A DNA stretch of 64,000 nt from Pagrus major (taxonomy: Eukaryota; Chordata; Actinopteri; Spariformes; Sparidae). How positions within the stretch are numbered: the first letter of the stretch is position 1; every line of letters starts with the position of its first letter. Positions 4,846-54,504 of this stretch are shown here, in pieces. Where the stretch lies: assembly GCF_040436345.1 (NCBI RefSeq), contig NC_133236.1, forward strand, positions 10,442,165-10,506,164. Reading direction: 5' to 3'. The position numbers and the translations under genes are program-made. The notes beneath the pieces were generated by a model. The model was not told the origin of the DNA. It saw nothing but the letters and a program-made list of their open reading frames with translations, and did not search any database.

Positions 4846-7800
4846 ATGGCAACAACAAGCTGCGAAAGTAAACCAGACGGACAGCAGACAGATGAAGGAA
4901 TGGACACAGACAGATCCATGTCGAGGTCCGACAGGTAAAACATGAAGTACTAATATCTGTGTCTGTGTCAGAACACTGTAAGGGAGTAACGGAGTGAAAC
5001 CTGGCTCTCGTTAGCTAGCTTACGCGGCTAGCAGGCTAGCTTCCACTGTCAGACCCACGCATTGTGTTCACGTGTACACAAAAGCAAAGGACAAAGAGAC
5101 GGAAAATTACAAATAACACTATAACAACAATAGGGTGGTTGTTGCTAAATCATAAAATATTTGGAAGAGGTTCGTTTGCAGTGTTATACCCAGCGACAGT
5201 TATGTTAACATTAGCTTTCTTCCCCTGGTTTCACTTGCGCTTATAACGGTTTATTCTGTTTTACTGAGGACGTCACGCCAAACTTCTGTGAAAATGTGAC
5301 GAATTATGCGAGTTATGGTGTCTGCAAACGTTTACAATGGACGTAACTTTACCTGACAGCGTTTCAGCCTGGCCTGGTAAATTCGGCATATTAACCACTA
5401 ACTAGAAACGAAAACTCCTTTCATTCTGCATTGTATGAATGTGTTTTAATGACGAGGAGCAAGTAATAACAAGTGAAACATGTAAATGGTTTCGATAGAA
5501 GATGGAGTCTGCTGTTGGTCTTCTCTTCTTAACGGAAGCTAATGCTACTTCGTGGCTAACACTCGCTCATTCATAACACGTAGCACTGAGGATGTGTAGG
5601 GGGGGTCAGGTGTCTGCCTGGCAGCCATGCGGACCTGGTTATGTTTGAACACCTGTCCCGTTGGGTTTGTTAGGGGTAGGTCTGTGATTATTACAGTACT
5701 ATATTTCCCACAAGGATTATTCTGAAATGAGGGCAAACTGAGTGGAACCCAGGTGGTTATTTGAGATGCATAGCTCTGATATGTGTCATTTTTATTTCAT
5801 GCACGAACCCATTTAAAATGGGTCAGGTAAATATTTGCTTGACTGATTAAAAATGACAGCTGCACAATCACACCCATTTATTCATCTTATTAGAGACTAG
5901 AAACTGAAGACCCTATGATTTGTGAATGCAAGATGTTCATGTTTATGGATAAAGCACCATTAGATTATCATATTTAAATGTTTTATTCAAACAGGGCTCA
6001 TTAAAGTACAAGGATAGTGAGATAGTTTGATTGTAGTCAAAAAATGTCCCTGCCAAGTGATGACAGCCTTACTCATGTGAATGCTGGCCCCACCTCATGC
6101 TATCCAGGGCAGCGATGTGATTTCCTGGGGAGTGTTGGAAAGTTCACCCTTCCTCCCCCTCAACCACACCGACAGCAGAGACCTCACTGTGGAGAGAAAA
6201 GTTAAGAGAGAGATACTCGAGTACTCAAACTCCCTCTCATCTCTCTACAGGACAGCAAAGTATCTGCAGGTCCACAAAAGGCAAAACATTTAAGCGTTAA
6301 GGATCAAATTTTGGTCCTTTTGCAGGTCTTACAATCAAAAGTAGCCTTTTGACTGTGAAACCGGTCTTAAAACTAGCTTTGTGGAACCTGCAGATGCTAC
6401 AGAATTAAATGCCTGAATTGGAGCAGCAGCATGGGGCCAACTATGAGCTAACAGGGCATCTCTGATGGCAACCAGCACAGATTAAAGTAGTTATCAAGCA
6501 GGCATGAAGTCACAAGGACTAAATTGGAGCCAAATCAGATCAATTCTGCCGTAAAGGCTCCAAGTAAACTCCTGTTATTTAGCCAAATACAATTCATTTG
6601 GAGTTATTTCTTTTATAATGATTTCAGGTATTTATAACACAGTGGTTTGCAATTGAAGTACAGTAAATAGAAACCTGTGAGCTGAACCTTTGGAACAAAG
6701 TCAATGTGCTGCTCTCTGATCTTTGCATTGGTTGTCCTCTTGTCTTTAACTCCAGTGGGAGTGGGGATGACTCCCTGGATGGGCTCTCAGAACGTGTCCC
6801 CCGGTGCCCTTTGACCCCGTCTTTATCGCCACAAAAACGGACCACAAGCCAGTCGAAGACGGAGCCTCCACTGCTGAGGACGAACAAACGAACCATCTAC
6901 ACCGCCGGCAGACCACCCTGGTACAACGTGACTGGGACCACCTTCAAAGAGGCATTTGTCATTGGTGAGATATAGAAAGCTGTCTCTACTTTCGTTCTTC
7001 TGTACTGTATTTCTAATTGGTAAGTGTCATAAAGATGGACGATGTGTCTCCACTTCCCCCCGCTGAACAAAAATGAAGCCAAAATATCCCACATACGAGT
7101 GCTGCCATTTTGCGCCGGTGGTGTCATTTGGAGTCAGACTCTGCGCAGGAGTGATCAGGCAGTGAAGCCATGAGATCAAAGTCCTGCCTGTAAACCCATC
7201 CACTCAATTGTGAGCAAGGCTCAGCTGTCAATCATAATGTTTTATCCCCTTTTATATAGCATCAAATAACTACTTTACTGATAATTTTGTTTTTTAATTA
7301 AACACTTGAAAATACATCAGCATGGTAAGAATGACCTGAAATGGCAGAAACCATCTCCAGGAAAAAATGTATTTGATGTGTACTTTGAGTTTTTAGTTTG
7401 GCTCATGTCACATCTGCTCCAGTACAGGGTCGGGTTTATGACCTGTATTGGCTTCACTTTTGGGGAGTTGTCAAGTTTTCCATCTTTGTACGCAGTCAAT
7501 GATTCAGAGAGCAAATCCCTGATCTCTGACGCCTGATGAGTTCCCAAATCAATGCCAGCAAATTCACCAAGAGTTTTTTGGATTCTCCATCTTGCCTAAC
7601 CCTAACCCTAACCCATCTATGTGCTTGAAAGCTGAACCCAAGTTGTTGAACCAGTCAGCATCCTATGAGAAACTACTGGCAGCTACAGGTGTGGATTAGG
7701 TGTGACAACCAGCAAGAGAAGCAATTGATTGTTTTAAAAACAAAAATGGCGGCTCCTCCAGAGATTAACATTGAAGCAGCTATCAACTTAGTTATATCAG

Positions 7801-10800
7801 AACTGTAGAGTTTATTTTATTGAAAGAAGAGGAAAGAACAGATTTGTAGAGTTTTCTCGATGGAAAACACGTTTGCTCTTTTCTTGACTGGCGTTTGCAA
7901 GTGTTTGATTACAAACCGGCTCGACTGGTAGCGTTCTTTTACTGGTGATACTGATTGGTTGAAGTTTGCCCGTGATAGATGGTGATCGACGGATGGTTTG
8001 TCCAATCACCCACCAAGTATTTTTTTAATGTGCCTGACCTTTTGCAAACAGTTTCTAGCAGCGCCTCTCCAGATGGTTCTGTGTAACAAACCATCTGGTG
8101 CGTCAGGTTTGGAGGCAAGTGCAAGAATACAAAATCTAATAGAACAGTAGGAAAAATAATTTTGAATTAGAATTAAATAAATTATTAAATTATCAGCAAA
8201 ATTGTTGATTAATTTCCTCAATCAACTAATTAATAAGTTGACTTTTTTTGGGGTACTGAACCTATTTTATGTAAAATAAATAAATAAATAAAAAATCACA
8301 CTGTCATTTTGAGTAACAGTTGTGTATATACGTGCCCAGACAGCAGTCTTAAATGTTCATGATGCTCTGGCCACCATCTTGCTGATCAGCACAGAAAAAT
8401 ATCTGCCCCAATGAACCATGACAGAGAGACTGTGTGTTTGTGTGTACACATCTGTATGTGTGTGTGGTGTGTGTTTGGCATTCACTGAGCTGATGTTCTG
8501 TGGTTAAACACATCAGACTGGCATGAATGGGAAGACGTGCAGGGAGAGGTGGACATTATCTTTAGTAGGCAATCTATTATTGTCAATGGGCCGCAGTGAC
8601 TGGTTACAATTTCACACTCTGCTGTCCATGTGGCTCCAATTAAAAAGGACCAGACTGTGTAACTGCAGGAAACTGGCCAGAGCATCATGGCTGGAGAGAA
8701 TGAACCAAAATGTATTAAAGGTCAGCGAAAGATAGAGAAAAACTGAGAAAGAGAAAAGCTTAAGGGGAGATAGGGATGGAAAGAAAAGATGGCTGGACAG
8801 ATGAACAAAAAGAGGAGGGATGAAGAGGGGACGTAAGGACAGGATGTGAAGCGTCATAGATACCAGAGGTTGTTTTCTACCCCCTCAGTCTGGTTTTATT
8901 GCTAATAGAAAAGGCAGTTTTATCTGCTTTAACAAGCCGCTTCAGTTGCCAGGCTTCACTAGAAATTTGTCACCTATGCTAAATCCATATGAACACAGTA
9001 AATAGGATTTTAATTCTTTTAATACATCAATTGTAAGTCAGAGCCAGTATTTCTACAACCCCTCTGGAGCTGTAATCATACGGAGAAATGAGCAGCACTG
9101 CAGTGTTTTTTCCTCAGTCTGCCAGTCAGCACTTTTGACCTTGATGGTTCTTATCTGAGCAAAAAAATCCCCCCCAACACCTCACTCAGAGTTGTTTATA
9201 CCACTGAAGTAGCTCTGTAGGCTATTTCTGTTCCTGTGCACACACACCAACAAACACACAAACGTTCACAGCAAATGCATCCTGTTTTTTCACCTCCTCG
9301 CCAGCCAGCCAGCATGTTCTTCTGGCCCATTTCCCAGCATTGTTGTGCTGAAGGCTTACTGTTGTGGTCTTTAACCCAGGAGATCAAGCACAGACTAACT
9401 TTTCTTACATCTGCGGTACTGATGACAATGTTTTTATTTCTTCAAGTTATTGATTACAGCACAAAATATGGTGACACACAAACATTTCTGCAGCACCAAG
9501 AAAGTAGATTTTCACACTGCCATTTTTTTCTAAACATCACACTTGCTATTAGGTCAACACTACAGATGTTCCTAAAGTCTAATTTCCCTGACATTAAATG
9601 GAAACTAAAATGATGTCGACAAGGAAATATTCACTTGGGCTTGGAGACTACATATTTTAAATAGAAAATTTGTGTTTTTACTTTTTAACCCTTTTTAGGG
9701 TTAAAAAGTTTAAAAGATGTGGCGGTAATAGGTGGCAAACACTATTAAGTAGGGCTGCAGGTAACAGTTATTTTTCAGCTTTGATTAATCCGACAGTTAT
9801 TTTCTTAATTAATCAGCTATCCATTTAGTTTAGACACAGATGCCCATCACAGTTCACTAAAGATGATGTTTTCAGATAACAAATGTTGTCCGACGGACAG
9901 TCCAAATCACAAATATTTTCAATTTAAGGGTTTGTACAAAGTCTCAGAAGTTTGAAAAATGCTTAATTTTGTCCATAATCTTTTCAAGAGTCTGAATATT
10001 CTTTAATTCGAATATAATTCATAGAAAAATGCTTCAGTTTTCAACACAATCTGGTGTTTCATTAACACAATCACTCATGTAAACAAAACATCTTTTTGAT
10101 ATTTGAAATGAAACAACCCTGTCATCATATTTGTGTGATGTCTCCTGGCATCAAAATCAGCATGAATAAAATATACATTCAAAGTTAATATGAAAAAAAA
10201 AGAAAGTTATAATATACATGGATTCTGTAAACTTTATTTTTAGAATTAAATCTTACTCTTAAAAAGCTGCAGTTAACTGTCACATAAGAATAGCAGCAAT
10301 TCATTAAAATTTGCTTCAAAAATGTTTTGAATCACTGCTCTACAGGTTCGCCAGATACATTGGAAATCTGATGGTAATTTTGACTTTAAAAACAAAAGAT
10401 CAGGATCAGTCATTGCTGATTCAATCTGACAAATATGTGGCTCCATTTCTCGATGTTTTCAGATTTTTCTTTATTTGTAACAGTTTGGTGTTTCTGTCTG
10501 TTTCCTTCCTGGAGGTCTGTGTGGAGGAAGTGCCTCTGGTAAAACCACAGTTGCCAATAAGATCATTGAAGCACTGGACGTTCCCTGGGTGGTTCTGCTC
10601 TCCATGGACTCTTTCTACAAGGTACACAATCCAGTTAATAGCGCTCTATGTAAACTGTCATTTAAAATATAAATGAAAGGTTTGATTGATGCCATTTAGC
10701 AGTGCATAGTTGTAAAAACTAATTACTTTATTTAATCAGTTCAATCATAATTCAGATTACTTGCTCAGCATTTTAAACTCAATGATCCGTAATAATTAAT

Positions 10801-13800
10801 TAGCTTTTGATTTTCAAACAACACCCAGTCAGTGTAAATTAAATATTAAGCTGATGTAAAATCAAACAGCTGCTCTTTCAATGCTCGTTTATCATTATTG
10901 CTGATTTCAGCACAATAAGTAAAAGCTGCTGATTGATAACCAATTGAGGACAATAGCTCATATCATTTATTCCATTCTCTCCTCTGAGAGGTCGATTGTT
11001 TTTTCAGTTTGCTTTACTCACAGAATCGAGCCCATTAGGTCTGCATGTTTCTATAGATTGAGACCCAGTTGTTGTATTCTTGTAGTCAATTGAACACTAA
11101 TGAGTAAAATAAGTGGAGATGGAAAACTGAACTCTAATGCCAAACAGTGTTGGATTAAAAAAAATGTGATTTCTAATGTTACGTACTTTTAAGTTAAACA
11201 GATTTCATCACTAATATAATATGTAGATATCTAGTGATGTAAGGACATTTTGGTGGTGGCACCTTAATTCAGAAGTATTTCACATATTGGTCTGTCAAGC
11301 CACCTTTATATATTTAATGTAACAGATGAGGAACTTGATTTTCTTTAAAATTGAAATTGGTTGAAGACACTTTGTGAAATTTTGCCATCAATATTTCCTG
11401 TATGAAATGTATCTTCCTACATCAAGCATAATTTTCTCATGATCTCACACTAATTTCAGTATTAAAAGATCAGCATTGACTTTGATGTTCCAAATTACAA
11501 TTGATAATTGAGGATTCATCCTCCATGGGAACTTTTATAATACTTACAATTGACATGATTCAAAGGACACAGATTGAATGAAAAGATTGATATCGTGTTT
11601 TTCGTCTGTGCTGTGTTTGTGTGTTAGGTGTTGAGTAAAGAAGAGCAGGAGCTCGCAGCTAAGAATGAGTATAACTTCGACCACCCTGATGCCTTTGACT
11701 TTGAGCTGCTGGTCAACGTCCTGAGGAAGCTGAAGAAAGGAAAAAGCATCAAAGTCCCAGTTTACGACTTTACATCTCACAGCAGGCGCAAAGAATGGGT
11801 AAGACATTCTCACTAACTTAATAGACTCTGGGGTAACTTACCTGGACATGCATGACATGAATCATCATTAGTTGGAGCAGAATTGATAATCCAATCTTTG
11901 TGGATTAAATATCTCTAAAGCTGTCTTCATAGTTAAAGAATTATGACCTAAACTTCAATGCAATCGACCATTTCACTTTAATTTTTAGACGATAATCTGT
12001 TTCACCAAAAAAAAAAAGCAGTAAACTGTATTTATTTATTTTCTCGTAATTTAGAGGACCAAATTACCATTGTGGTTACAAATCCCTGAACTCTCTCTGG
12101 AGATGTATTAGTCGTCTGGGCTGGTGCCAGCTGAGATGCCTGCTAATTTGCTAATTATTAAGGATTTAATGTACAAGACATTAACCCAAGCAAAGAGCAC
12201 AAATCCGCTCCCAGAAGCATTGTGAAGAATCAATCTAGCCGTGTAGCACTCTGACAACTCCTCTCTATTTCTTTGCAATGTAATTTCATGGCTGAAAGGC
12301 ACAACACCACGCGGGAAATCGCCTATCACGACTTGTGACTCTGAAATCATTTTATGGGCCTTTTGTACTGGGGTGAGTGTAATTAAGCCCCAGGCCCCGG
12401 GGGAGTTGAGGACTGAAAAGGGCCAGCTAGCTTCAGGCTGGATATACTGTGTATTCAATGGATGAAGAAGAGTTGCTTCTTCTTCTCTGGTAAAACAGGA
12501 GGTCACCTTCTCTCTCTTTTTCTCTTAAACATGTTAAAGAGCCACTAAATCATCTTCTAGCAAATACCAGGGAAATGAACAAATCGATAAACACTCATCC
12601 GTTTCTTTAGATTTCGCTTTCTGCTTTTCACACACAGCCTCGCATGGACGCTCTCTGTCTCTCTCGCTTTGTGTCTCCTAGCTGGTTCTCTCTCTTTCTC
12701 CAAATCAATACTCAAGTGTCCATTCCATTGACTTTTGCATGAAGCTGGTCAGAGGAAGGTAATAGGATTGTGACATACTCTGCACCATTTTCTCTTTGAT
12801 TGAGATGGTGATTAATCTTTCACACACGCTTGCTCTCCTCGGTAGTAAAGCAGGTTCACAATGAGTTTCATCAGATAACAGTGAAGCACATGCACGTGTG
12901 CTGAGGTTGTTTGTGGGGCTAGATGGCTGTAGGATTTCATGCAGCAGCGTTCAACTGATCAGTAGGGCTGCAACTAACAATTATTCTGCCATTACTTTTT
13001 TCAACATTAATTATTAATCAAATATAAAATGTGAAAAAATGCATACATACTTCAATATTTTGGTGTCTAAATGTCTAATTTGTACAAAAAGTTTCAGAAT
13101 TGGTTCAGCGGATTGCCTCAGTCGGCAGGTGTGAAACAGGCTGCAATGTAACAACTTCAACTGTCCACTAAAAGCTTTTGTTTTTGCCACTGAAACACTG
13201 AGATTGTTACTTTGAGTGTCTGACAGCGTTATGAAAATGATCCCTACCGAGATGGATCTTTTTGTTAGAAGTATAACATAGTAGAAGATACTTTTCTGTT
13301 TAACCAGAAACAGCAGCTATCATCATATATCATATACATATATAGCGGCACATATTGTGCAACGATAAAGCGGATACAGATATATCTATAATAGGCTAAC
13401 ATCAGCCAATAATATCAACCAGCATATCAATATATTGGTCGGGCTCCAGTCATGGTTTGTCTTTTCACTGTTCCAATAATCACCAACTCTGGTTTGGTCA
13501 AAATAAACCTTTTATTCACATAGCTGGGTGTGAAAATATTCTGGCCTACCCACGCCATATTTCTCTGTTGTCTCTCTGATGTCATCTTGGTTGTTTCCTG
13601 TCAGACGCGTCGCATATTAGAAATTATTGGCCCGACGTGGAAATCTGTCTGAACGAGAGACATACCAGACGCTTCTGCCAGAACAAATAAAACGTGAGCT
13701 CACAGATTTGCCTGGTTTTCCAGTCTAGCTTTATTACATCTCATGACTGACTTAGTCTGCAACTTTGGAAGACATTTGACATTTGATATGTCGACTTTAG

Positions 13801-16800
13801 ACTTCAGAAGTCTCAATAGCTTTGGTTTAACTTGAGGACGCACTTTGACTTGGAACTAGGGCTGTATTCAACCATCTTTAAATGTGCAACTGTGACATGG
13901 AAGCAACCTCCTCATGGCTATTGTGGACATGTGGAAATCAACATCTGTTAACACCTTCAACACACATCTGTGGTTCTGTGAGCTATAAGCTAGACTTAAA
14001 AATATTGAATCTGTCCTCCATAATTTGTTCATCTCAACAGAAAACAGTGTACGGGGCCAATGTTGTCATCTTTGAGGGCATCCTGGCATTTGCCAACAAG
14101 GAGCTGCTGAAGGTAAGAAAACTCTGTTTCTCCACTCTACTAAGTTTTCACTCTTTGTTTGCCCTGTCGCGTTGTTTTTAACTCATACATGCCTGAACAG
14201 TTTCACACATCAAGTGCCCAATGAATAACATACAGGAATGCAGACAGTGAATGCAGCACTGATTGGCAACTGGTCGACATTTCTTTAAATACCTTCAGAC
14301 ATTTATTGCATTGGCAAAGTTTTCATAATGCTCTCTTCTCTGCACCAGACCTGATTAATGGCTCCGTCAGCCCAGAGACAACCAACAGACTGATTAATAG
14401 TGAAATAAATTCTCTGATTCTGAGCAGGGATATTAAATCCACTAACTGCTAATTTATCTGTGTGATGAATTGTTTCATATGGGTGACAGAAGCGACTGGC
14501 GCAGATAAGGGCCTTTTATTAAATATCAGTCAGTCAGTTTTCCTCTAGGATCATGATGATGACTATCACTGTTTGATCATTTTTATCCATTAGTTTTTTT
14601 TAAATTGAATTATTATTTATTTTATTATTTATTAAAACAAAATTCCCATCTATTACTAGGAGCTCCACTTAGTGTTAAATAAGTAATTACATATTATAGG
14701 AAATAGATGGTAACATTTCTAGAGAAGCACCTATATTTTAACATTTTCTGTACATAAAAAAGCAAAAAAAATAGATGCATAAATAAATAAATGAAATAAT
14801 TAAAAAAATTTAAATGAGCATGTTTAAAAATATATATATATATTACAAACAATATCTTGCTGGTATTTACACCCATCTTTGTGTGCTTGTGTATAGGGGA
14901 CCTAGTTCATGGGGAAAATGTAATCCTGCATACTGAGGAAATCCATGAATCCATGAATTAAAAGGGAGTGGTCCTACAGCTGCTCCGCCTCGCTCTCCTT
15001 AACCTTTTGTGACGTGTATTTGTGAGACTGTGTGTGTGTAAGAGCTGGACCGTGGCGATAAGGCACGCAGCCTCCCCAGGGACTTGGCTGTGTAGTTGAT
15101 TACCCTCTGATTCACTTAATAACAGCCTTTGTCCGCGGTGATTAATTGCGTTTTGTGTCCATTCTTGTAATTTAAGTCAATTATAGCTTCAAATCTGATA
15201 TGCTAATGGAGAGGTCTGGTTTGAGAAACTAAGACGCTGCATTAAGACAAACTTTATGCTAGGATTCGGTGATATGATGGTATATACTGTGAGAAGATCA
15301 TAGAAGATTGATTTTTTAACACTGGTAATATCAAAGTGGTATATAAGTAGGACTTCATCATGGCAAAATTGGATTTACAGGATTTCAGCATCAGTGTGAT
15401 GAAGAAGCTTGGTTTATTGCAGTATTAAAAGTTTGACTCCAGGGTTTTAGTATTGCAATTCCACTCCCAAGAGACACACTTTTTAAAAATATGGACAAAC
15501 TCAAAGCAGCAGACGCAGAGAGATCTTGACTTTTAGACCCTCATATTGGTCAAGCTCCACTAGATCCTACATTTCCCTTGAGCACACAGGACACACACAA
15601 CACACTCATTTATCTCCAAGTTGACATGGACCCTAATGACCTCAAGGTTGTTATCTCAAACTTTGGAGGGCTCACTCTAGAGCCACAGAAGACATTGTGC
15701 AACTGTTTTCGCAGGCTGTATATAACTCCCTGTGACTGGTTAACTGACCTATATTTTTGAAGTCTACAGAATTCCCCTTTAATTCACTGGAATTGCCAAA
15801 AAGAGGGCATCCCATCTGTTTATGATGCATACATGAATGACGTTGGCTTGGCACTTACTTGGTTAGTTTAATTGCATACCACCAAGACATACACACAAAT
15901 AAACATACGTATATTATTAGGCAGGTACAATATTTTGCATTTCGCATTTTATTAAAGATATAGTACATGGATTCATACACACAAGGAGAAAATATGGGGA
16001 TCTGGACAATGAGAAATGAGTAAATTTGTTTTTTCATTTCTTCTCTCACTGTCCATGTTGGTAATAAATGATTAACATGGTTTGAAGGGAATTTACGTGT
16101 TAAAGTGAATCCGAGATTGATTTTAAATTAAGTGTTACCATAAACTCAAAAGACATTTTCTGGTTTCTCCATAGTCTCAGAATCGTTAAAGGTCGTTTGG
16201 CAGACACTTCCTGATATTTTGTTAAAACGTATACTGTATTCTATTTCTTGGTTGCCGGTATATTACTTCAGATTCACCTTATGTCAGATGATGATAACAG
16301 ATTGTTTAAAAAAAGCTTAACTGAAGGGTACAGTTTCGGTTTCATGTTTCAGTATTATAGCCAAAAACACCCCAGTGTTTTCCTGTTGGAACGGTTTAGA
16401 AAATGTACCTATTGCCTCAGCCTTGCTCTTTAACGTAACCTCTTCCTATAGCCTGACAGCCGTGCTTATCCAGCAACATGCTGTCTTTCAGTTGGTCAAC
16501 TTGTCAGATTTACAGCAGTCAGAACTGGACAGCTTGTTGTGCAACTGAGTTATACCTGAACCTGACTGTCCTCCTCATCTAAATCACTCACAAACTTCTT
16601 TTTTATTTCACTAGTCATCAATAGTTGTGTTGGTGAGCGAGGCTGTTGCCTCTTTGTTGTTCCACCTCTGTTGTGATTGCGGTGCATTGATTTTTCCTGG
16701 TTTTGCTGAGTTGAGGTTCAGTTTAATGGAGCTTACTGGACAGATCAACGGCTGACTTTCCCTTTTTAAAGTGACAGCAATAACTGATGTCTTCTCAGTT

Positions 16801-19800
16801 TATACGTTTGACTCTTTAACATGTCCTGACCCCAATGCCACATTTAAGCTATAAAAATGTAAATTCATGGAAGCAGCAGAAAAATGCTTTTTTATTGACT
16901 TTCAGTGTGCAGCAAAGCGCCGTTGTCTTTGGCTTTAAGAAATGAAGCCTTCAGTTTTTCTTTGATTCTGTCTGTCATTTGTTCCTCTCTCCTTAATATA
17001 AGTACAGTTATACTGTTTCTGCACACCACATATTAAATAAACTCAGAGGTGAAACAGTCAATTAGTTGAAATTTGGTTGCCAACAATTATGACAATCTAA
17101 CATTTTCTCCAGTTCAGCTTCTCCAGACCGAATATTTTCTGCTTCTTTATGTTTCGATGTTTATAAACTGAATGTCTTTGGATTTTGAACAGTAACTTAG
17201 ACAAAACAAGCAATTTTAATGATTAATCTTGTGCTGTGGGAGATTATAATCATCATTAATAGACCAAATATTAGTGAACATGAGGCATTTTATTGGTAAA
17301 CAATCGATCAAGAAAGTATTTGACAGATTAATCGAGAGTAAAATAAAATGATTAAACCAATATATTCTGACAATCCTGGATTTTTTTTTTTATCAACTAT
17401 CCAGACCTCACTGGATTATTCTGTAGTTTGCCCAATATCTTTTGTTTTGTTTTATTTGTTTTTTTCCTTGGCAGCTTCAGAGATCGCAGTCTAAAGTGGT
17501 GATCAAGTGATTATTGGCCTATCCAAATGATCAGATCTGACATTCATACATTTTTTTACCTTTTCTTGTCAGATTGCAGATAAAATAAATTATTTTTAAT
17601 AATGCAGATTGGCTACTTTAATTCTGATGCCAAATAATAATGAAGTATTAATAATCTGAGTCTAAAAAGCAACATGTAACTCGAATTTGTAAATAAAGGG
17701 TTATTCATTATGTAGAAATTGGCATTTTGTGTGATTTGGTGCCCCCCAAAGTTTCTGAGTACAACACAACTGTTGTAAATACAAATTCCAGGTCTGTAAC
17801 AATTTGTCAGACGTAATGTAGGTGTTTACTACAAACAAAACTCATCGTATCATAACAATGTTATCTGTTGAAAACTTGTATCTTGAAGTAAACATGTATG
17901 TAACGCTCTGATCCTCCCCTCTCACTGAAGTGGATTAGACAATTAGAAACCATTCACCCCATTACAAGACACTGTACCATCAATATGATTTTGAAGCTGT
18001 TATTTTAAGGTATAAAAGTTACATACTGTTGCTTAAAGTACAGAACCAGAGTAAATTGTACTTAATTGCATTCCATTATTGGTTATTCAAATTTTTCACA
18101 CCAAGATTTTCACTTTTTCTGCAAATGCACATCTGCACATCGGTCTTCTTGATTACTAATAATCAGTATCGGTTGATCACTTGTCTAAAGTAATCAGTAA
18201 AACATGCTTCAATCAACATGTCAGAAAAAAGTACGCACTACAACGTTTAACCTGGTATTTATTTTTATTCCTTTGTTTTGCTCAAAGAGAACTGTTCAAA
18301 AATAAATTAGTTTTTTTGTATTGCACTGCAGTCACAAGACAGATTGTGGGTGTTTGAAGCTGTTGTAGACAGCTGTTGTTTTAAATCAATGAGCAGGACT
18401 GCTTTATGACAGTGTTGGATTTGTATATGACTTTTACATCAATGTGATGAAGTACGTTAAAATGCAGTATTTGCCTCCTTTGGATAGAAAACAAAAGGGT
18501 GGAACCTACATTTCAGAGGATTTACATAGTTAGCATTTATAGTAGGGCGACTGTGTTGTGTCATGTTACACAACATACAGAGTGCCGAAAAAGCCCACAG
18601 AATGTTAATACTGACTTCTTTCCTTTCCTTCCCTTCCCTTCTGCCAGCTGCTGGACATGAAGGTGTTTGTGGACACAGATTCTGACATCCGCTTGATACG
18701 GAGGCTGAAGAGGGACATTTCACAGCGTGGACGGGACATCAGCGGCATCATCAAACAGTACAATAAGTTTGTCAAGCCGGCGTTCGAGCAGTACATCGAG
18801 CCTACAGTGCAGTCAGCTGACATCGTGGTGCCCAGAGGTCAGTGGAAATATAGATTACTGTGTAGAAATATAACATTACTACTTTTCAGTATGTGTACAC
18901 TTTACATATTATTTGATACTGGTGCTACTGGGCTCCTACTGGTCCAAAGTATATACACCAGTGTGCTGTTGTTGAAGCTTCTTTGCAGTCGTCAACAGCA
19001 GCTCATCTTAAGTGCTGCTCTTCAGGCCAAGACGACCTTAGGGAAAATGTAAGAACGAAAAAATGATGCCTTCAAAGAATGTTGAAAATGTGAAAATCTA
19101 ATCATGATTTTTGTCTTCACAGTTTCTTGCTTTGATATATGGTGTACTTTTTGGGGGGTCAGGTTCAATTCAAACAATATCACTAACTTCTTGTCCTTTT
19201 GTGTTTTAAATTCATTTTATTTCCAGGTGGAGAAAACTTTGTCGCCCTTGATTTGATTGTTCAGCATGTTCATAGCCAGCTGGAGAAGGTAAGGACTCCT
19301 CAGTCTGTTTCTGTTACTGTGTGAGAGTTGGAAATGCACTTTTCAACAGAAATTTACTGACTCAGCTGAACATTTGGTTTATCTTAGTTATTCCACCCTT
19401 ATTGATTGTAAATCTTAGGTCAGTCTGTGAGGGCTTTTTTGCAAAAGAAAAAAAAAGTGCTGCCTCAACTGCACGTTGTACTGATAAGTGTGACGCTATT
19501 TATTTTCTTCAATCTGCTGTTGCTGCTGTTGGAATATTATTTTAAACAATCATAACCTCCATAATATAGCTAGTGGGCTTCAAAATGAGCAAAATAATAA
19601 CTTTTGCAACACGTTTGACTGTTTTTTAAATTAGCTGTTTTCATCATAACTTGCCTCTTTAGATTTAAATGATCAGCGGTCCATGGACAGATAAATGCAC
19701 TTCTCTAAAATCTGAAATTTCATTTATCACCGAACTTGAGGTAAAAAGGGGGCAATCACTGTTTAGTAATCCCAATTGGCTTTCGGAGGGAAGGGTGGGA

Positions 19801-22800
19801 CATGTGTCACAACTTCCATCTCTGGCATTACAGACTTTCCGTTTCAAAATGCTTTGAGGGGGTTGTGTTTTGATATACATCTCTGGTTTAGGTTCCTTGA
19901 AAGTGTTTGAAAACTGCTTGAACTTAACTCTTGAAAAGCAACACAACAGTGCCAATGTGAAAGGAAGGATTTGATCTCACTAGGAGATTTTTTTCAGCCC
20001 TCCTCAGAAGTTTCATTAGAAAATATATGGTGCCATCTCCCACCTCTGTAAGCCTTATCTAAAACCCTGGTTAATGAAATTACTTTGGAAATGGATGAAT
20101 GGACTCCTGGGTCAGGTGACCATGGTACACTTGGTAAACCACATGTTGTCTCTTCCTCCCTCTGCTGGTTGAACAGCTAAATGATGCTGTTTTTTGCAGG
20201 TGAAAAACTGGATGAAACCATTCAGATTTCACTGTCTGTTTAGTTTCCTGTTACAGTAGACTTATAATTCAGGAGTTATACTTCAAGATGATTAAGTGAC
20301 ACCAAAAGCAAACTAAAGATTTATTTTCTCAATTCAAAATCTGCCTGGTCTCTGTATCCCCCTCATTTCCCCTCTATAGTCTTCTGAAATTGAAACAGAG
20401 GTTTACCTGAGATAAATGAGCACTTAATGTCAGGACAGGTGTCGTCCATCTCTCCTCACCTCCCTGTACCCTCAGCCACCTAATGACCTGCACCAAACTA
20501 TGATCTGTTCCACCTCCATCGTATTCATGCATGCCTTCAAGTAGACCTCACAGAATATCTTTCACACCTACAGTATGTAGCTCGGACATTTGGAAGTACA
20601 CACACTGGTTAGCATAATTATCGTCCCATTTTTGCTCTGTCAAAGCAGTGATCTCCTGACTCTTACTTCAGCATCACCAACAGGTCAAAGTGTCCACTAA
20701 TCCAGTGAAACATCCCAACATTCACCTCATGGATTCACACTAAATTTCATACACACATCCATGATCCCTTCAAGATGAATTGTTATAACACTGGTGACTC
20801 CTTAACTTCATCTAGCGCCATCATCAGGTCACATTTTTTGTTCTTTTCAATACTTAATAACCAAATTCCAGCAAATGGCTATAAAGAGAAAACTCAGATG
20901 ATTATCAAAAAAGGTGGCAAATAATGTTCTTCTTATCTAATTGTTGCAGCTCTACTGTTAATCAGTTGATTCAGGATTTTTTTTAAGCAAAAATGCCAAA
21001 CGTTTGCTGGTTCCAGCTCCCTAAATGTGAGGGTTTGTTGCTTTTCTTTGTTATTTATGACGGTAAATGAAGAATCTTTGTTTTTTTTAGACTGTTGTTT
21101 GGATAAAAGAAGCAATTTTGATGACATCATTTTGTGTATTTGAGCTTTTTTCTTACTTTTGACATTTTATAGACTAAGCTATTCATCAATTAAAGAAAAA
21201 AAATTGGCAGATTTATCAATACTGAAAATAATCGTTAGTTGCAGCCCAAGGACATTGTAAACCTTATACCTGTGAAACATAGTGTACTAGTGTTATAAAT
21301 GTGAGCATGCTGATGTTAACATTTAGATTAAAGTACCGCCTCACATGTCAGGAAGCTCTTTATTATGAAAATCTGTGAAACGATAACATGGTCATTTCAT
21401 ATAATTCTGCTGAAGATCGATATAAGTTAACATTGTTCAGGCCTTCATTCATATTTCAATGGTGGGATGTCATTGATACATTCTAACAAACATTTATTAA
21501 ACTTTAAATGTTTGGCTTGTTTCAAAGGTTTATGTTGCAGGTTTGCTTATCTCATGTTTTTTTCCCTTTCCTCATGTGTTTCACTGTTTACACACACAAA
21601 CCCACATGCGTGTTTGTGTCTCCTTGTGCGTGCACGACCCCCCCTTGCCTGGCTGAATGCTGTGTAACCATTCCAGCGTGAGATCACTGTGAGGTATGAT
21701 TGTTGCTTTTTTTTTATTAACCTTCTACATCTTCTCCCTCCTCCTTTTTTCTTTCCCCTCCTGCCTTCAACCAGACCTCATTTGAAAACAAAGACAAAAT
21801 AAATATTTGTCTTTGTTTTTGTCCCTTTAAATGGATCTGCGGTGGAAGTTAATGGGGTCTATTCGGTAGTTTTTGTGCAACACCGCTGACAAATCAACCA
21901 ACAAACGGACACAAAATAACCTCTGAGCAGCCTACAGGACACAGGCCAGAAGACGCATAAACAGTTGTAAAAAAGCTTGAGTTTACATAAAAAGATCGAT
22001 GCTCCGGTCAGTTTGTTAAATATGGTTGAATAGAGGCTGCTCTCAGGCTGTTAGTAAGCCTCCTGCAGTGTACCTACCTGTGCAGTAAAGACCTATGAGT
22101 CACCCTAAAATAAATCCACTTCAAGACAAATTGAATTGATCTAGCCTCTCTGCAGCCCTGAACTTGAAATGTTTGTTCAGTGTTGCACAGCAGTGATGTA
22201 GTGGGGCTGTTTCACTGCTCTAATACTCTTCTTTCTCTTCTGTATTTTTCTTTCTCTTCTCACTTTTTATCACTTAATCTCAACAAATGAATATCTGTCC
22301 ACTTCTTCAGAGGAAGCTCCGCTGGGATATGTGAGGTTCCCCTTGTGCATCCTCTTTTAGTGTCGTACTTTAAAAAGCAGTTTTGTAGTTTTTCTTTTTT
22401 TTATTGTTCAGACAGACTGTGCATCTTTAACTGAATGACTAAAGCCAACATGCTTGATTGTTCTCTTTGATGACCAAAATCTGACGATGAAACACTGAAG
22501 TTGTTTTGGCAGTAAAAGCATTAAACTCATTTGCAGCCAAAGCATGCTTTATTTCTTTTAGAGTTGGGTCAGAGCATGCAGCAAACACAGTATTTCATTG
22601 CTCTCTAACATTGTAAGCATGTGTTTGAAAGTGTGTTTGCTGCAACATGTGCTAATTTTCAGGACTTCATTTCTTGTTTTGCATCTTGTTGGCTTCAGGT
22701 GATGGCACACACTGTGTCAGTCTCTGTTTCAAGAACAACACAGAACTCTCAGCTAATGTTTGACTAATATGATGGCAACAATTTCTGCTACTACAACTCA

Positions 22801-25800
22801 AATATTACCCGAATGAAATTATTCAAATTAGAAACCTTGCAGGTGAAGTACCAACACCTTGGGTTGCTTGCTTTGGACGTTTTTCTAAACTTAAAACAAT
22901 CCTTTTTTCTTTTGTATTCATTTTGCTTTTAGATCACAGTAGCCTGTTTAACCCTGCAGTCAGTATTAGTTCAGTTAGTCCTGATTAAGATGGTCGAGAG
23001 TCTGAAACCAGCCCCTGTTCAGTCAAACAACATGTTGTAAACATCTGCTTCATATCACAAGTAGCTAGCATGTGTACTGGAAGCAACATACTGTATGTAG
23101 TGGGTAGTAATAATTTAAACATTTGCAATCGATTTGGTAAATTAACCAGGTGGCTTGTTAAGAAACGAGCTGCTTCTTTCTCAATCTGCGATCTTATCTG
23201 ATCATTTATTGCAGTAGAATCTATTTACTTGTCATAGTTGACCTGATTCGTTACAGTTCAGGTGACCAAAAATGGGACAATATGAAAATTTAGAGTCACG
23301 AATATCCTGGTCAACATAATTGCAATTCAAGATAATACCATGATAATCATCAAAATATACTTAAAACTCTTAAAATGGCATCACTTTACATTTTGTTAGG
23401 AAACAACTATTTTTATCTTTTTATATCTTCAATTCCCCTGCAGTTGGAGAGGAACCCTAGTCTGCTGCTACAGTATGTTACTTAAGAATTCGTATGATTC
23501 TCTTCTGCATGTGAGTCACTCTGTGTGTTTGTATATGTTTGATTTTTACAGATCAGCTCTGGCCTCGGCTCACCAGGGCCAGCCTTTACCCAAAACCCTC
23601 AGCGTGATGGAGAGCACACCGCAGGTCCGCGGCATGCACACCATCATCAGGTCAGAATACACAAGATTCAGACTTTTATTCCCTGGTGTATGTCAGGCTC
23701 GAACAATTTTCTTAACAGAGACTTAATGTTTTTCCTCCTCTCTGCTCCTGACCTCTGTGTGTTTGTGTAGGAACAAGGAGACAAACAGGGACGAGTTTAT
23801 CTTCTACTCCAAGAGATTAATGAGGCTCCTGATAGAACATGCCCTCTCCTTCCTGCCTCTCAAGGTGAGTTCTGGTGTTTCTGTTATTAAAGTGGAGATT
23901 ACTAACTGACCTGCTGCTGCGTTTTTTGAAGGTTGAATCTTGTTGGAATAGTGTTTTATGTATTCTCCATGATTTAATGTTCTGCTCTAAACATCCAGTT
24001 GACTGGTATAATTGTTAAAGTGGCAAGTTGACAAAATATTTTTCCACTTCCACTGTCTTTTTCTTCCTCTCCAGCCGGTATCTGTTGAGACACCTCAAGG
24101 TGGCGTCTATGACGGGAAAAGACTGAGCGGTAAAAGAGTAAGTCTTTCTTTAGGCTTCTGTTCACCTGGAGTTAATCACTTTTGTCACCTTTTAGTGCCC
24201 TCAGATCCAGTTAACATGCACATTCAAGTAAATATTACCTAAATGTATTGTGTGTGTTTTCTGCAGATCACAGGTGTTTCCATCTTGAGAGCAGGAGAGA
24301 CGATGGAGCAGGCTCTGATGGCTGTGTGCAAAGACATCAGACTGGGAAAGATCCTCATCCAGACCAACCACGACACGGGTGAACCAGAGGTATGTGAGTC
24401 TCAAACACTACAATCTGTACACATACAGCATTAAGTACACAAGTATTAGAAAGAAATACATTTTAGCAGGAGTTTAACGAGTGTGTTAATGGCTTCCACA
24501 AGCTTACATCACTGACAGTTCCCTCCTGGATTTAGAGATTAGTCACATGTTGGCAGTTGTAGGCATGTTTCTTTTTTGTGTGGAGAGCTGTATCAAAAAT
24601 GAAATGAAATTTTACAGCACCAGAACTCATCAGAAAGGAGTTGCTCATCCAACACAATATAATCCTAGATTTTCTGTCTGGAGGGAGTTTTCTGTTCTTA
24701 CTCATTGCTTCTTCTTTGTTATTGCTTGTACAACTTCATCATTCTGTTTTTGCTTTCCATGATCTTTTTTTCTTTTTCTGCAGTGATTGAATGATTTTAG
24801 TAGGTTTGTACAGAAGCTTTGGATGAATTTTTGAATTTGACTGTCAATATTATGAATGAACATCAAAATATAACGTAGAGCCTGAGTTTGAAGCTGGTAA
24901 CAGATACTAAATATGAGAATATCTGCACATTTCTCATGTCTTTCCTTTAGCTCCACTACCTTCGTCTGCCCAAAGACATCACTGAAGACTATGTCATCCT
25001 GATGGATAGCACCGTGTCCACCGGAGCTGCTGCTCTCATGGCCGTCAGAGTCCTGCTAGTGGGTCTACAGCTGTCATTAAAAAAAACTGATGAATATCAA
25101 CTTATAAGTGTTTCCTCAGTGGTTTGCTGAAAAACCTCACATTGCTATTGAAAAAATGTCATATAAAATAGAATAAGCCATCTAATCCATGTTAAGATAA
25201 TTGGAAGGCAGCTGGTATTGTGTTATTGCTAAAAACCTGTGAATACATTCAGTCAGCCTTGATGGAGACCAGTCCTTGAGGTTTTTAATGAACATCCTCT
25301 GTCTCTCTCCCCATTATCCTCTGAAGGACCACGATGTAGCCGAGGATAAGATCTTCCTGTTGTCCCTGCTAATGGCAGAGATGGGTGTCCACTCAGTGGC
25401 CTATGCCTTCCCTAAAGTCCGCATCATCACCACTGCTGTGGACAAGGAGGTCAACGACCAGTTCCACATCATACCAGGCATCGGTGAGGAGCTTTCTTTT
25501 CCCCTATAGGCTGAATTTGTAGTAAACAAGAAACATAGAAGTCAGTTTTCCTTAATTCATCATCTGTGAGAATTGTCGGAGTCCTGCTTTAGTATAAGTT
25601 GCAGGAAAAAAATTATCTTTTATTTATTATCTTAAACTATATATAAAAACTCTGCTGACTTTAATGTTTAAAATGTAGCCACACATATAGCATCTAATAT
25701 AATAAATTAAACTATACATTAATTGTAAATTACCTTTTGTTGGCGCATAAAACCAACAATCTGTTGATCTTTACAAATCCTGATGTGATAGTCTAACAAT

Positions 25801-26054
25801 GGCACGGCTGTCAGTGCTGATAAAAATGTTGAAATTAAAAGTCAAATTGAATCGTGACCTTAGAATCGAAATTCAAATCAAACTGAGGATGTCGAGAAGA
25901 AACCCTACTAATTACTTAGGATTAAGGACATATGGGGAAAAAAAACCTTATGTTACTTTGCTTTTTTCTTCCCAAAGGTAATTTTGGAGATCGTTACTTC
26001 GGCACTGACGCTCCGTCAGACTGGTGTGAAAGTGATGAAGGGATGGACTGCTGA
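4846..26054 (+). CDS. uckl1: Uridine-cytidine kinase-like 1
   Basis: The protein joins a uridine/cytidine kinase domain (phosphorylation of uridine or cytidine to the monophosphate, pyrimidine salvage) to a uracil phosphoribosyltransferase-like domain. Exons: 4846-4934, 6756-6964, 10515-10621, 11628-11798, 14041-14112, 18648-18837, 19227-19288, 21677-21693 (17 nt), 23552-23650, 23771-23864, 24075-24137, 24267-24389, 24951-25058, 25327-25483, 25978-26054. All have GT-AG borders and phases that sum to 545 codons plus stop; the human protein is about the same length. The start is the ATG in good context (GACATGG) opening the first exon. Residues 1-75 are a poorly conserved Ser/Thr-rich tail, then [13 protein letters not shown]. 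The P-loop GGSASGKT is at 103-110, the MDSFYK motif with the likely catalytic Asp at 131, NFDHPDAFD at 151-159, YDFTSHSRR at 181-189 and RRDI-type lid residues near 238-246. The UPRT-like part has [11 protein letters not shown] (394-404) and a PRPP-loop-like [10 protein letters not shown] (451-460), altered from active UPRTs, so phosphoribosyltransferase activity is doubtful. The C-terminus is short and acidic. Teleosts may carry two paralogues; I cannot say which this is. An alternative eighth exon is listed separately. Confidence 0.96.
7595..7614. repeat. Short CCCTAA interstitial run
   Basis: About three and a half CCCTAA units within uckl1 intron 2. It is far too short to imply a telomere. 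Confidence 0.8.
9751..9990 (+). repeat. Copy of the GGGCTGCAACTAAC interspersed repeat
   Basis: It opens with AGGGCTGCAGGTAACAGTTA and continues with the ATTAATCAGCTAT and GCCCATCACAGTTCA blocks shared with the copies at 31329 and 36652. This is a diverged teleost repeat lying in uckl1 intron 2. Confidence 0.7.
12060..12450. other. Possible conserved non-coding element in uckl1 intron 4
   Basis: A block of balanced composition without low complexity, between ordinary AT-rich intron sequence. It contains homeodomain-type strings such as TGCTAATTTGCTAATTATTA near 12140 and a GC-rich core CCCCAGGCCCCGGGGG near 12388. The reverse strand is open for 132 codons across it (12108-12506) but shows no known domain and no splice or start logic. 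I read it as a candidate enhancer rather than a gene. Confidence 0.4.
12964..13090 (+). repeat. Partial GGGCTGCAACTAAC repeat
   Basis: It begins AGGGCTGCAACTAACAATTA, the canonical start of this family, and fades after about 130 bp. It lies in uckl1 intron 4. Confidence 0.75.
13320..13450. repeat. Fragment of an ATATCGGCCGGGCTC-type MITE
   Basis: It ends in AATATATTGGTCGGGCTCCA, the usual terminus of a widespread teleost repeat. A more complete relative lies at 26661-27007. Confidence 0.55.
14340..14530. other. Possible conserved non-coding element in uckl1 intron 5
   Basis: A balanced, repeat-free block about 230 bp after exon 5. It contains two CTGATTAAT strings (near 14350 and 14390) and GCTAATTTATCTG near 14448. 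This has the style of a homeodomain-bound enhancer, but that is inference from composition and motif density only. Confidence 0.3.
14950..15220. other. Possible conserved non-coding element in uckl1 intron 5
   Basis: A GC-balanced island in AT-rich intron. It contains CACTTAATAACAGCC, GGTGATTAATTGCG and TTGTAATTTAAGTCAATTA in a row (about 15110-15185). It has no repeat signature and no open frame of note. Candidate cis-regulatory element. Confidence 0.35.
15221..18647. other. Remainder of uckl1 intron 5
   Basis: AT-rich intron. A diverged repeat related to the GGGCTGCAACTAAC family lies at about 17046-17352, with TCAATTAGTTGAAAT at the left and AACAATCGATCA near the right end. A C/T-rich acceptor tract precedes exon 6 at about 18617-18647. 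I recognise nothing else in it. Confidence 0.5.
20600..21345. repeat. Teleost repeat split by a younger insertion (uckl1 intron 7)
   Basis: The left part (20640-20935) has the phrases GGATTCACACTAAATTTCAT and ATCTAGCGCCATCATCAGGT, and the right part (21249-21345) has ACATTGTAAACCTTATACCT and GTGAGCATGCTGATGTTAAC. These are consecutive parts of one common teleost repeat. Between them sits a reverse-oriented copy of the GGGCTGCAACTAAC family, so the second inserted into the first. Confidence 0.6.
20939..21247 (-). repeat. Reverse copy of the GGGCTGCAACTAAC repeat
   Basis: It ends on the + strand in AATCGTTAGTTGCAGCCC, the reverse complement of the family start. It contains the shared internal phrases TGCTGGTTCCAGCTCC and TTTGTTATTTATGACGGTAA. 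Confidence 0.75.
21677..21693 (+). other. uckl1: uckl1 17-nt microexon (exon 8a)
   Basis: Acceptor ATTCCAG, 17 nt encoding REITV plus two bases of an Arg codon, donor GAG/GTATGA. It links exon 7 (phase 0 end) to exon 9 (which supplies the third base) and corresponds to the RELSVR segment of human UCKL1. It encodes residues 301-306, between the kinase and UPRT-like domains. Confidence 0.9.
21836..21935. repeat. Fragment of a CTGACAAA-CAACCAAC repeat
   Basis: It shares AGTAGTTTTTGTG and CTGACAAATCAACCAAC with the longer copy at 63480-63705. Only the terminal part is present. Confidence 0.55.
22226..22270 (+). promoter_or_regulatory. uckl1: CU-rich intronic tract upstream of alternative microexon
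   Basis: About 45 nt almost entirely C and T, with repeated CTCTTCTTTCTCTTC units, 40-85 nt before the 22311 acceptor and upstream of its own shorter pyrimidine tract. Tracts of this kind bind PTB-type splicing repressors and are typical of tissue-restricted (neural or muscle) microexons. Binding here is inferred. Confidence 0.45.
22311..22330 (+). other. uckl1: Candidate alternative uckl1 microexon (exon 8b, 20 nt)
   Basis: Acceptor TCCACTTCTTCAG, 20 nt encoding RKLRWD plus AT, donor TAT/GTGAGG. Its length (20 = 2 mod 3) matches the 17-nt exon 8a, so it can replace it without changing frame and gives RKLRWDI before SALASAHQ. Including both (37 nt) or neither shifts the frame, so the two should be mutually exclusive. 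Like 8a it begins with Arg followed by a charged residue. No transcript evidence was available. Confidence 0.6.
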
Positions 26055-33400: not shown

Positions 33401-36400
33401 TAATATATAATAATATATAATAAACTTTATTTATATAGCACCTGTAAAAATAGAGTTTACAAAGTCCTTTGACAATCAAGCAAGGCATCACTCCAGTTTT
33501 TTTAAAATGCTCCTCTGCACTCCATCCAAAATCCTCCCGCTCACTCACACTCCGCTCACATGGTCTGATGGTGACCTGTTTTAAAACGTAAAAAACAACA
33601 AATTGAAAAACACAGAATGGCCCTATACAGCTCATTTTGCATAATCCAAGTGTCCAGAAGCCTAGAGATCCCCCATGGATTTAAAAAGGTGTAATTTACA
33701 CCCCTTTTAAGCGTAAAAGCGTCAGCAGACACCTCAATTTGTAATGGGTTTGTTTTTATTACATTTTAAGACCCCATCTACTTCAGTTGTCTACTATCTG
33801 TATTGATTTTTGGTCCGTTGATGCCAACGTTGCATTTTGTAAAAAGGAAAACAAAAAGTCCTGTTGTGAACGAGGGATCATACAGCGTTGTTGCCCCCTC
33901 TGCTCACAGCATAATCTATGCTAATGTGTTTTAATGTGTCCTGTTTTGAATGTGTGATGTTGTTTTTATAATGGACCTCTTTTGCACACGAAATGTAAAC
34001 AATTAAGTGTTTTTCTATTCTGTTCTATAATCACAGCAGTCGCCAAAATTAGCCATTTCTTATCATGTTACATATGTGAGGTAACCACAACATATGAACA
34101 GACTTTTAGAGCTTTGTATTCCTCTTTAATTAACTACAGTGAATGTGTCAGTGCTAACCCTAGATTATCTTTAGTTGTGACTCTACATGAGGTGGATTTG
34201 CAGTTACTTTCTCACCAGTTTGTGGACACACTAGGGCATGTAATAGCTGTCTGATTTTTTTGCACAGTGACTGAACAGTTTTATCCACTCGGTAAAATGA
34301 ATGAATACAAAAACCTCTTGTGTGAAAATATCATCTACAGGAATAATATCACCTGTGTCACCATACTCGGTGGTCTGAGACACTGCGTCTGTCTCCTGTT
34401 TGTCCTCCAGGGTCGTTAGTGGGTGTCGGTGATGTCATCTCCCAACAGCTGATTGAGAGAAGAGGATTGGCTCATCACAACGTGCAGAGGACGGCCAAGA
34501 TGATGAGTATTGGTTTCTTCTTCGTGGTAAGTAGTCTCCTCTTGACTCTTGCTGTATTTTTTTATTTTTTTAAACAAATTTTATTGGGTCATCACATCAT
34601 ATTTACAGCATCTGCAGGTACAAACATGCCCAGTTTTATATTTGTTCAAACAGAAACACTATGAACAAAGGAAATTATTTCAGTTGGTCCACCATAACAA
34701 CTCTTGTTGTATATGTTTTTGTAGCAAATTGTGTGATGATTTGCTTAAATTTTTTTTCCCCATCATAATTGTCCAATATTAATTAAAACAAAAAACTATT
34801 AATGACAAAACAGTCTTTAAATGAACTTATAATGAGTAAGTAAGAGATGAATGAGTAGATAAAAAATGAGTGAAAGTAGTCCCTGTTCACAGCTGCAGGA
34901 CATGACAATTTGACAGAGATGATTAGGGACACCGCTTTATATTAACTAACTGGTTTATTGGCTGTCTAAAACAAACTTCTCGTCTTATTGCTGTCAATAT
35001 CAAGAAGTATAAAAAATCACTTTATATAAATTGATTTAAAAACTGTTCTAACTCAATTAGTTGGTGGAGTCTTAATTGAGATTTAATGTACAACCGAAAC
35101 GGTGACAGACAAGTCAATCATCTGAATTTACAGAGCGTCACATTCACAACTTATTAAACACTTATAACCTGATATTAGGCTGAAAATTACACATACAAAA
35201 TTGTGATTTTATCTGAGATGTACTGCCAAACGTTATTTAGCGCTGATTTGACACCCTGTTGTGGTGGAGGAGGCAACGCGTGTTGATATTAGATGAGAGG
35301 GGAATGAGACGGTGCTGGCAGAGGTTACTGTGGGTTAATTGTCCAAATGAGGCGCCACGCATGCAGCACTTTAACATACAGACATGGAGGACTTAGTTCG
35401 CCCTCTGGCCAGTTTGGGAAGGAGAAAATGGCGAGCCAAGAGTTTTGACTGAGGCTACATGTTGTCTTTGCCGTGAGACAATATCATCGTCTATCACGAT
35501 ATTTGAGCAGGACAATATCAGGATATAAAAAATTTGGATCTCACCCGAGCCTAGCGCTGAAGTTCGTTTAATCTTTACCGATGTCTTCTTTAAAGATCGC
35601 CAGGATAATTGATGTTGACTCAAAGTAGACGTTCAGCAGTAGCAGGTCATCAATATATATTTTCCGAAGCTGCCGACACAGCTGGAGCATGCAGCATGTG
35701 CTTGGCGCCACTCTTTATAGTTACCGTTCTTGGTGTGGACGGCCCTTTACTCACTTTAATCATGTACTGTATACTGAAATGAAAAGATACATACATACAT
35801 ACAGCATAATTAGATTTTTTAAAATATAAAATAAGTGCTTTTTATGGCGTCTATTTGGTTGTTTAACATGAGAAAGCAAATGTAAAGCAAAATGAAGAAA
35901 TTCATGGGCAAACTCTACCTTCAACAGCATCAAAAATCGTATTTATAGATCTATAAGTGACTATTCAGAGTGTGTGGATGCTTATCTGTGTCACGTAGTG
36001 TTTCTTGAAGCCTTTGTGTGTTCGTGAGTCCTCTGACAGCTGAACAATTCACCTCTAAAGTAGCACATTTCTTTTCTGACATCACCGTGACGTTGACAAA
36101 GTTTATTTATATTTCCATAATCGTCTTACGTTCGTCCAATTGGCTGCCTCGTCCCCATGAATTATAGAAGGACGATGTATAGACGCTTGTCTTGAGAACA
36201 GCTCCTCTGCCACATATGGGAGTCATGTTACACTAAGACATGTTTGCTCATTCATCCAGAAAGACACTACTGTTTCATGACTCATACAGCATGTATCGCT
36301 CTTTGTCACATCAATAATTTATTACATTTGTTTGTTTAATTCAATTAATGTGCTGTCGGCATACAGATGCTAATGTTTGATGAGTAAAGCAATACGTTTT

Positions 36401-54372: not shown

Positions 54373-54504
<132 letters not shown>

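Follow-up and report, generated by a model that had tools for sequence, protein, structure and literature searches.

A conserved, frame-locked microexon pair, probably mutually exclusive, in the kinase-UPRT linker of uckl1 in Pagrus major

Does uckl1 encode a single linker between its two domains, or does it switch between two versions? The question is raised by a 64,000-nucleotide (nt) stretch of Pagrus major DNA (contig NC_133236.1), referred to here as the window, whose positions are used as coordinates. The window holds a complete uckl1 gene of 15 coding exons on the plus strand (4846-26054), and all model introns have GT-AG borders. The product carries a uridine kinase domain (PF00485, residues 98-285) followed by a UPRT-type domain (PF14681, residues 327-530) by Pfam, an arrangement that identifies it as UCKL1. 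At the place of exon 8 there are two very small exons, A (17 nt) and B (20 nt) (Table 1). We put the probability at about 85% that A and B form a conserved, frame-locked, mutually exclusive microexon pair in the linker between the kinase and UPRT domains.

Microexons are exons of about 3-27 nt, and both A and B are inside this size range. An initial annotation of this DNA had described two phase-matched microexons here, and they were found exactly at its positions, each with AG before and GT after and each with a length that is not divisible by 3 but equals 2 modulo 3. Assembly of the full gene with A alone gave an open product of 545 amino acids (aa), and B alone gave an open product of 546 aa. 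With both included, the frame ran for 330 aa and ended in exon 9, 591 nt ahead of the last exon junction; with both skipped, it ran for 368 aa and ended in exon 11, 440 nt short of that junction. Since these stops lie well before the last junction, nonsense-mediated decay is predicted to act on the products of either wrong choice. Non-triplet lengths that agree modulo 3, with early stops for the wrong combinations, make A and B a frame-locked pair, and the earlier claim that the frame forces a single choice was borne out. From the frame, we infer that cells very probably use exactly one of A and B.

The swap had also been placed between the two domains, which agrees with the protein: A supplies residues 301-306 and B residues 301-307, both in the kinase-UPRT linker. 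This is just beyond the end (297-298) of the alignment of the window protein to solved UCK2 structures, and no solved structure matched to the uckl1 protein aligned over the linker. As read from the sequence, the B peptide has an added tryptophan, a net charge of +2 instead of +1, and one more residue than the A peptide. No similarity of A to B that would point to an origin by tandem exon duplication was detectable by alignment against shuffles; the global alignment score of A (in its RELSVR form) with B, which share the start R-x-L, was reached by 19.8% of 5,000 shuffles.

We investigated how far the window by itself argues for B, using splice matrices of approximate vertebrate frequencies, with thresholds set by B's own scores. 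B was the sole candidate in the 4,263-nt interval that kept the frame, contained no stop and had splice scores at least equal to its own, and at the weaker splice scores of A the interval held two frame-keeping candidates. At least one candidate as good as B was present in 39 of 500 simulated first-order Markov introns, which favors the explanation that B is a chance exon-like string in the intron. On the window sequence alone, B is only modestly above chance, which is suggestive and not proof. A scan of IMG/VR for exact B plus GT yielded 0 matches.

The comparison with other uckl1 genes of the same genome (786 Mb in 25 contigs, with the window on contig 22) was more decisive. Exon 9 had two matches elsewhere, both on contig 7, and in the 30 kb taken around each of them tblastn identified a uckl1 gene: P1, on the minus strand at about 7.89 Mb, and P2, on the plus strand at about 13.40 Mb. 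With the window gene, this makes at least three uckl1 genes in the fish; P1 and P2 are about 5.5 Mb apart on one chromosome. P2 contains both A (CGCGAGCTCAGCGTCAG, encoding RELSVR) and B (AGGAAACTTCGCTGGGATAT, at contig 7, 13397553-13397572, encoding RKLRWDM after joining to P2 exon 9), matching the window gene in their order and phase. In P2 as in the window, either neighboring internal exon completes the frame; all four choices behaved alike in the two genes, and the wrong combinations of P2 stopped within exon 10.

Window B and P2 B were identical at 18 of 20 nt, and the acceptor AG and the donor GTGAG were conserved. The two differences, at exon positions 6 and 9, are both synonymous changes at third codon positions that keep RKLRWD, and the first and second codon positions were identical throughout (14/14). 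The intron around B showed background identity, with 12 of 54 positions matching upstream and 14 of 54 downstream. When the exon 7-9 interval of the window (4.4 kb) was compared with that of P2 (3.7 kb) by blastn, with the low-complexity filter on and E values up to 0.01, just three matches were obtained: exon 7, exon 9 and a 27-nt block comprising AG, B and GTGAG (E 5e-5). At 25% identity, at least 18 matches in 20 would arise with a probability of 1.6e-9; the probability rises to 5e-6 at 40% identity, a level near that observed at four-fold sites. These sites agreed in 36-40% between uckl1 genes (333 codons from 10 of the 15 exons, limited to exons with an equal-length ungapped placement matching at least 62% in both paralogues). 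An agreement this low indicates that the window gene and its paralogues do not stem from a recent duplication; synonymous sites are nearly saturated, so the duplication cannot be dated from them.

A near-identical B with its splice sites at the same place in P2, within introns that are otherwise unalignable, argues that B is not a chance string. A degenerate B pattern matched three places in the whole 786 Mb, namely the window, P2 and a site on contig 17; the last (12221676-12221695) has TG before and AC after, lacks splice borders, and was dismissed as a chance match. A tiny recent gene conversion as the source of the P2 copy is opposed by the flanks, which show no longer tract. The conservation in P2 lifts B far above chance; the chance-string explanation was rejected after this comparison and its probability is close to nil. 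Conservation of the 20 nt and of its splice sites, one of the two points on which the initial annotation had made its claim depend, thus held in a paralogue comparison within the same genome, and B is very probably a real exon.

Microexon A was present in all three uckl1 genes, and a degenerate A pattern with splice borders had three matches genome-wide, one for each of them. Both paralogues read RELSVR at this position, and according to the initial annotation human UCKL1 does so as well. The exon 7-9 interval of P1 is shorter (1.2 kb), and it held no recognizable B: the best 20-nt match in the P1 interval was 12/20, no better than chance.

We next examined the AG exclusion zones, that is, the AG-free stretches before the acceptors. 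The zones before A and B of the window (Table 1) were far outside the 29-62 nt of the ordinary acceptors of the window gene. In P2, the zones measured 163 nt for A and 157 nt for B, and that of P1 A, which has no B partner, measured 64 nt. Zones of at least 100 nt preceded all four microexons of the genes that have both A and B, compared with 2 of 36 other uckl1 acceptors (Fisher p 1.6e-4, with rows that are not independent); P1 A is outside the four, and counting it gives 4/5. The count omits exon 1, which has no acceptor, as well as P1 exon 6 and the second exon of each paralogue, for which equal-length placement failed; paralogue exons 11 and 15 were placed at only 49-57% identity. With zones of at least 100 nt, A and B of both the window gene and P2 fall into the distant-branch-point class, which suggests that their branch points may be unusually distant. 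In human, 838 of 67,334 exons (1.2%) have zones of this length, and those exons are more often alternatively spliced (PMC1431707). The two longest AG-free zones of the window are at about 1070-1266 (197 nt), with CA and CT repeats, and at 54332-54509 (178 nt), overlapping a CA/GT repeat visible in an open reading frame translation.

Table 1. Positions of the uckl1 exons and AG exclusion zones in the window
Feature	Position	Strand	Remarks
uckl1 coding region	4846..26054	+	Open 545-aa product; GT-AG at all model introns; Pfam PRK 98-285, UPRTase 327-530
Exon 1	4846-4934	+	
Exon 2	6756-6964	+	
Exon 3	10515-10621	+	
Exon 4	11628-11798	+	
Exon 5	14041-14112	+	
Exon 6	18648-18837	+	
Exon 7	19227..19288	+	Shared upstream exon; ends at codon boundary (...HSQLEK)
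AG exclusion zone and acceptor AG of A	21541..21676	+	134-nt zone; third longest of 3,773 AG-free zones in the window
Exon 8a (microexon A, 17 nt)	21677..21693	+	Alternative to 8b; CGTGAGATCACTGTGAG; REITVR, with exon 9 completing the last codon; AG before, GT after
AG exclusion zone and acceptor AG of B	22202..22310	+	107-nt zone; pyrimidine-rich (UCUU/CUCU motifs); 11 of 3,773 zones this long or longer
Exon 8b (microexon B, 20 nt)	22311..22330	+	Alternative to 8a; AGGAAGCTCCGCTGGGATAT; RKLRWDI, with exon 9 completing the last codon; AG before, GT after
Exon 9	23552..23650	+	Shared downstream exon; SALASAHQ after either microexon
Exon 10	23771-23864	+	
Exon 11	24075-24137	+	
Exon 12	24267-24389	+	
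Exon 13	24951-25058	+	
Exon 14	25327-25483	+	
Exon 15	25978-26054	+	

Motifs for PTB, Rbfox, Nova, CELF, MBNL, QKI and hnRNPH, and UGC, were counted around the five microexons against a background of 696 uckl1 intron stretches. The only excess common to both B exons was in pyrimidine-rich, PTB-like tetramers, of which the 150 nt before B contained 21 in the window (a count reached by 1.0% of the 696 stretches) and 11 in P2 (3.3%). Such richness would be compatible with B being repressed in most tissues, with the regulator being a guess. No Rfam match was obtained anywhere in the window at gathering thresholds.

Several observations weigh against a regulated, mutually exclusive pair. B is common to the window gene and only one of its paralogues, P2. 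The donor of window B has T at position -1 and a low score of 2.1; the donors of exon 3 (0.0) and exon 13 (0.6) score lower still. Two ordinary acceptors, those of P1 exon 13 and P2 exon 9, also have zones longer than 100 nt, and those of P1 exons 7 and 9 reach 95 and 98 nt. Simple repeats can produce long AG-free zones, and the zone of P2 A has a CA repeat, which makes its value weak. The PTB-like motifs are not specific to B, since 150-nt stretches at P1 exon 5, P1 A and P2 exon 12 contained 16, 14 and 14 of them. The Rbfox motif GCATG did not occur in the 150 nt upstream or the 150 nt downstream of any of the five microexons. An excess of UGC was found upstream of window A (7 per 150 nt, reached by 0.6% of the 696 stretches) and not upstream of P2 A or either B, and P2 B had upstream excesses of CELF-like motifs (13, which no window stretch reaches) and Nova-like motifs (7; 1.2%) that window B did not have. 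Across the five microexons, no tissue-type motif signature common to both genes emerged.

B might alternatively serve as a poison exon, which, when joined with A or mistimed, would shift the frame and lower uckl1 output through decay while yielding no second protein. The stops of the A+B and skipped products upstream of further junctions, and the long AG-free zones before B in both genes, would suit such a role. A poison exon, however, needs neither an open in-frame peptide nor a length that matches A at 2 modulo 3, and it does not call for changes that are synonymous only; the confinement of the two B differences to third codon positions points to selection on the peptide, which is suggestive and not conclusive. 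We regard this explanation as improbable. Still less credit is due to the notion that B is a conserved intronic element, such as a splicing enhancer, a small RNA or a DNA element, and no exon at all. Short conserved intronic blocks do occur in vertebrate genes, and no B transcript has been seen, but AG and GTGAG border the conserved block, its length class lets it swap for A in frame, it changes at third positions only, and the window gave no Rfam match.

A different possibility, not raised in the initial annotation, accepts the pair as real and makes its exclusion steric, with the branch point of B within about 50 nt of the A donor, the spacing required for exclusion of the OGDH type (PMC7969005). 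Exons 4a and 4b of OGDH are, as A and B very probably are, mutually exclusive exons in the gene of a metabolic enzyme (PMC7969005), and they share with distant-branch-point exons (PMC1431707) and the uckl1 pair the AG exclusion zones of at least 100 nt that are typical of that class. Unlike in uckl1, the human OGDH branch points are 25-41 nt from the upstream donor (PMC7969005), and the A-B intron of uckl1 far exceeds the length that this arrangement allows: the distance from the A donor to the B acceptor is 617 nt in the window and 1,154 nt in P2, and the AG-free zone of B starts about 509 and 995 nt, respectively, from the A donor. Steric exclusion was therefore rejected, and we give it hardly any weight. 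U2/U12 incompatibility between the introns was also rejected as a candidate, all model intron borders being GT-AG; comparison with the U12 donor consensus was purely visual. With steric exclusion ruled out, regulated choice plus decay of the wrong products remains to account for exclusivity. The proposal that nonsense-mediated decay enforces the single choice therefore stood as far as the premature stops go, and decay itself stays a prediction.

The RBFOX1 exons B40 (brain, 40 bp) and M43 (muscle, 43 bp) resemble the uckl1 pair in being annotated as mutually exclusive short exons (PMC9153194), and their lengths, 3 apart and neither divisible by 3, make them frame-locked by the modulo-3 arithmetic of the present analysis. 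They differ from the uckl1 pair in size (40/43 versus 17/20 nt), in belonging to a splicing factor gene and in having known tissues, and a rise of B40 was seen without a fall of M43 (PMC9153194). Of the 629 mutually exclusive exon clusters in a human survey, 377 were non-triplet, such that joint inclusion breaks the frame, and according to a section heading the clusters mainly comprise one ubiquitous exon with the others regulated (PMC5740500). For the prediction of new exons, the survey set a minimum of 10 aa and similarity to a neighbor, with annotated exclusive exons entered separately; under this rule an unannotated, unlike pair of 6 and 7 residues would be missed. UCKL1 is not named in the main text of the survey (PMC5740500).

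Microexons and distant-branch-point exons are known kinds, as are mutually exclusive exons and frame-locked pairs, and RBFOX1 is a close precedent. SRRM4-dependent neuronal microexons share the size class (3-27 nt) of the uckl1 pair. They are mostly in-frame cassettes with UGC shortly before the acceptor and neuronal inclusion, whereas the uckl1 pair is a non-triplet swap with no UGC excess common to both genes. No paper on a uckl1 microexon pair was found among the open-licence papers listed, and there was no text match for RKLRWD or "mutually exclusive microexon." UCKL1 is among the alternatively spliced genes of a cattle muscle study, with the exon unnamed in the passage concerned (PMC8116494), and the relevant passages of 2026 work on non-triplet splicing (PMC13247117) do not name UCKL. 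Annotation databases may already list the B isoform, and a mammalian UCKL1 isoform may differ at the A/B place.

The neighborhoods of the genes bear on the age of the pair. Downstream of uckl1, an open frame at 50649-51152 (+) encodes a CRF-family peptide (Pfam PF00473, E 1.8e-17), probably urotensin-1/urocortin, and at 34347-34661 (+) lies an open stretch that looks MPV17-like but drew no Pfam or NCBIfam match. In zebrafish, a mutation was mapped to 200 kb of linkage group 20, and primers for slc30a2, uckl1, mpv17, uts1, trim54 and dnajc5ga are listed under that mapping (PMC3711038). P1 is flanked by a LIME1-family gene (E 2.7e-7) and an EMI-domain, EMILIN-like gene (L015:5013-5771, L017:4487-5086). 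Human LIME1 and UCKL1 are located on 20q13.33 and MPV17 and UCN on 2p23, and the two neighbors link P1 to the human 20q13.33 neighborhood. DNAJC5, a marker of the human UCKL1 neighborhood, was not found by short-motif search in the window or within about 30-40 kb of the paralogues. Near P2, an open stretch (L021:5773-6180) with no Pfam match looks ZNF512/ZNF512B-like.

The mpv17/urotensin-1 setting of the window gene and the LIME1 setting of the paralogues, although resting on few markers, suggest that the vertebrate genome duplications separated the window gene from P1/P2, which would make B older than those events. Whether the A/B switch predates the two rounds (2R) of vertebrate genome duplication, so that RKLRWD(I/M) would have persisted for some 450 million years and given UCKL1 a second conformation or mode of partner binding through a tissue-regulated exclusive pair, is a matter on which we would lay even odds.

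If A and B are a regulated pair, A (REITVR, or RELSVR in the paralogues) would be used by default and B (RKLRWDI/M) under regulation. The choice could depend on branch points unusually far from the acceptors and on pyrimidine-rich stretches that splicing regulators may occupy, and nonsense-mediated decay would clear the wrong combinations. The swap would replace six residues by seven right after the last helix of the kinase domain and shift the linker by one residue, which probably alters the packing of the kinase and UPRT-like halves or of partner proteins. It may thereby affect domain coupling or oligomer contacts, perhaps in a tissue-specific manner, as the initial annotation had proposed.

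UCKL1, in which a uridine kinase is fused to a UPRT-like domain, has received little study, and a conserved either-or swap of 6 or 7 residues in the joint between the two domains would point to a part of the protein that evolution keeps in two versions. The A and B isoforms offer a clean pair for comparing kinase activity, assembly and partners. The uckl1 pair also illustrates a class, that of unlike, frame-locked microexons, which is beyond the exon-prediction step of the human survey (PMC5740500). If the proposed age is true, uckl1 would hold a pre-2R switch of a very short, unlike and frame-locked kind that similarity-based searches for exclusive exons pass over.
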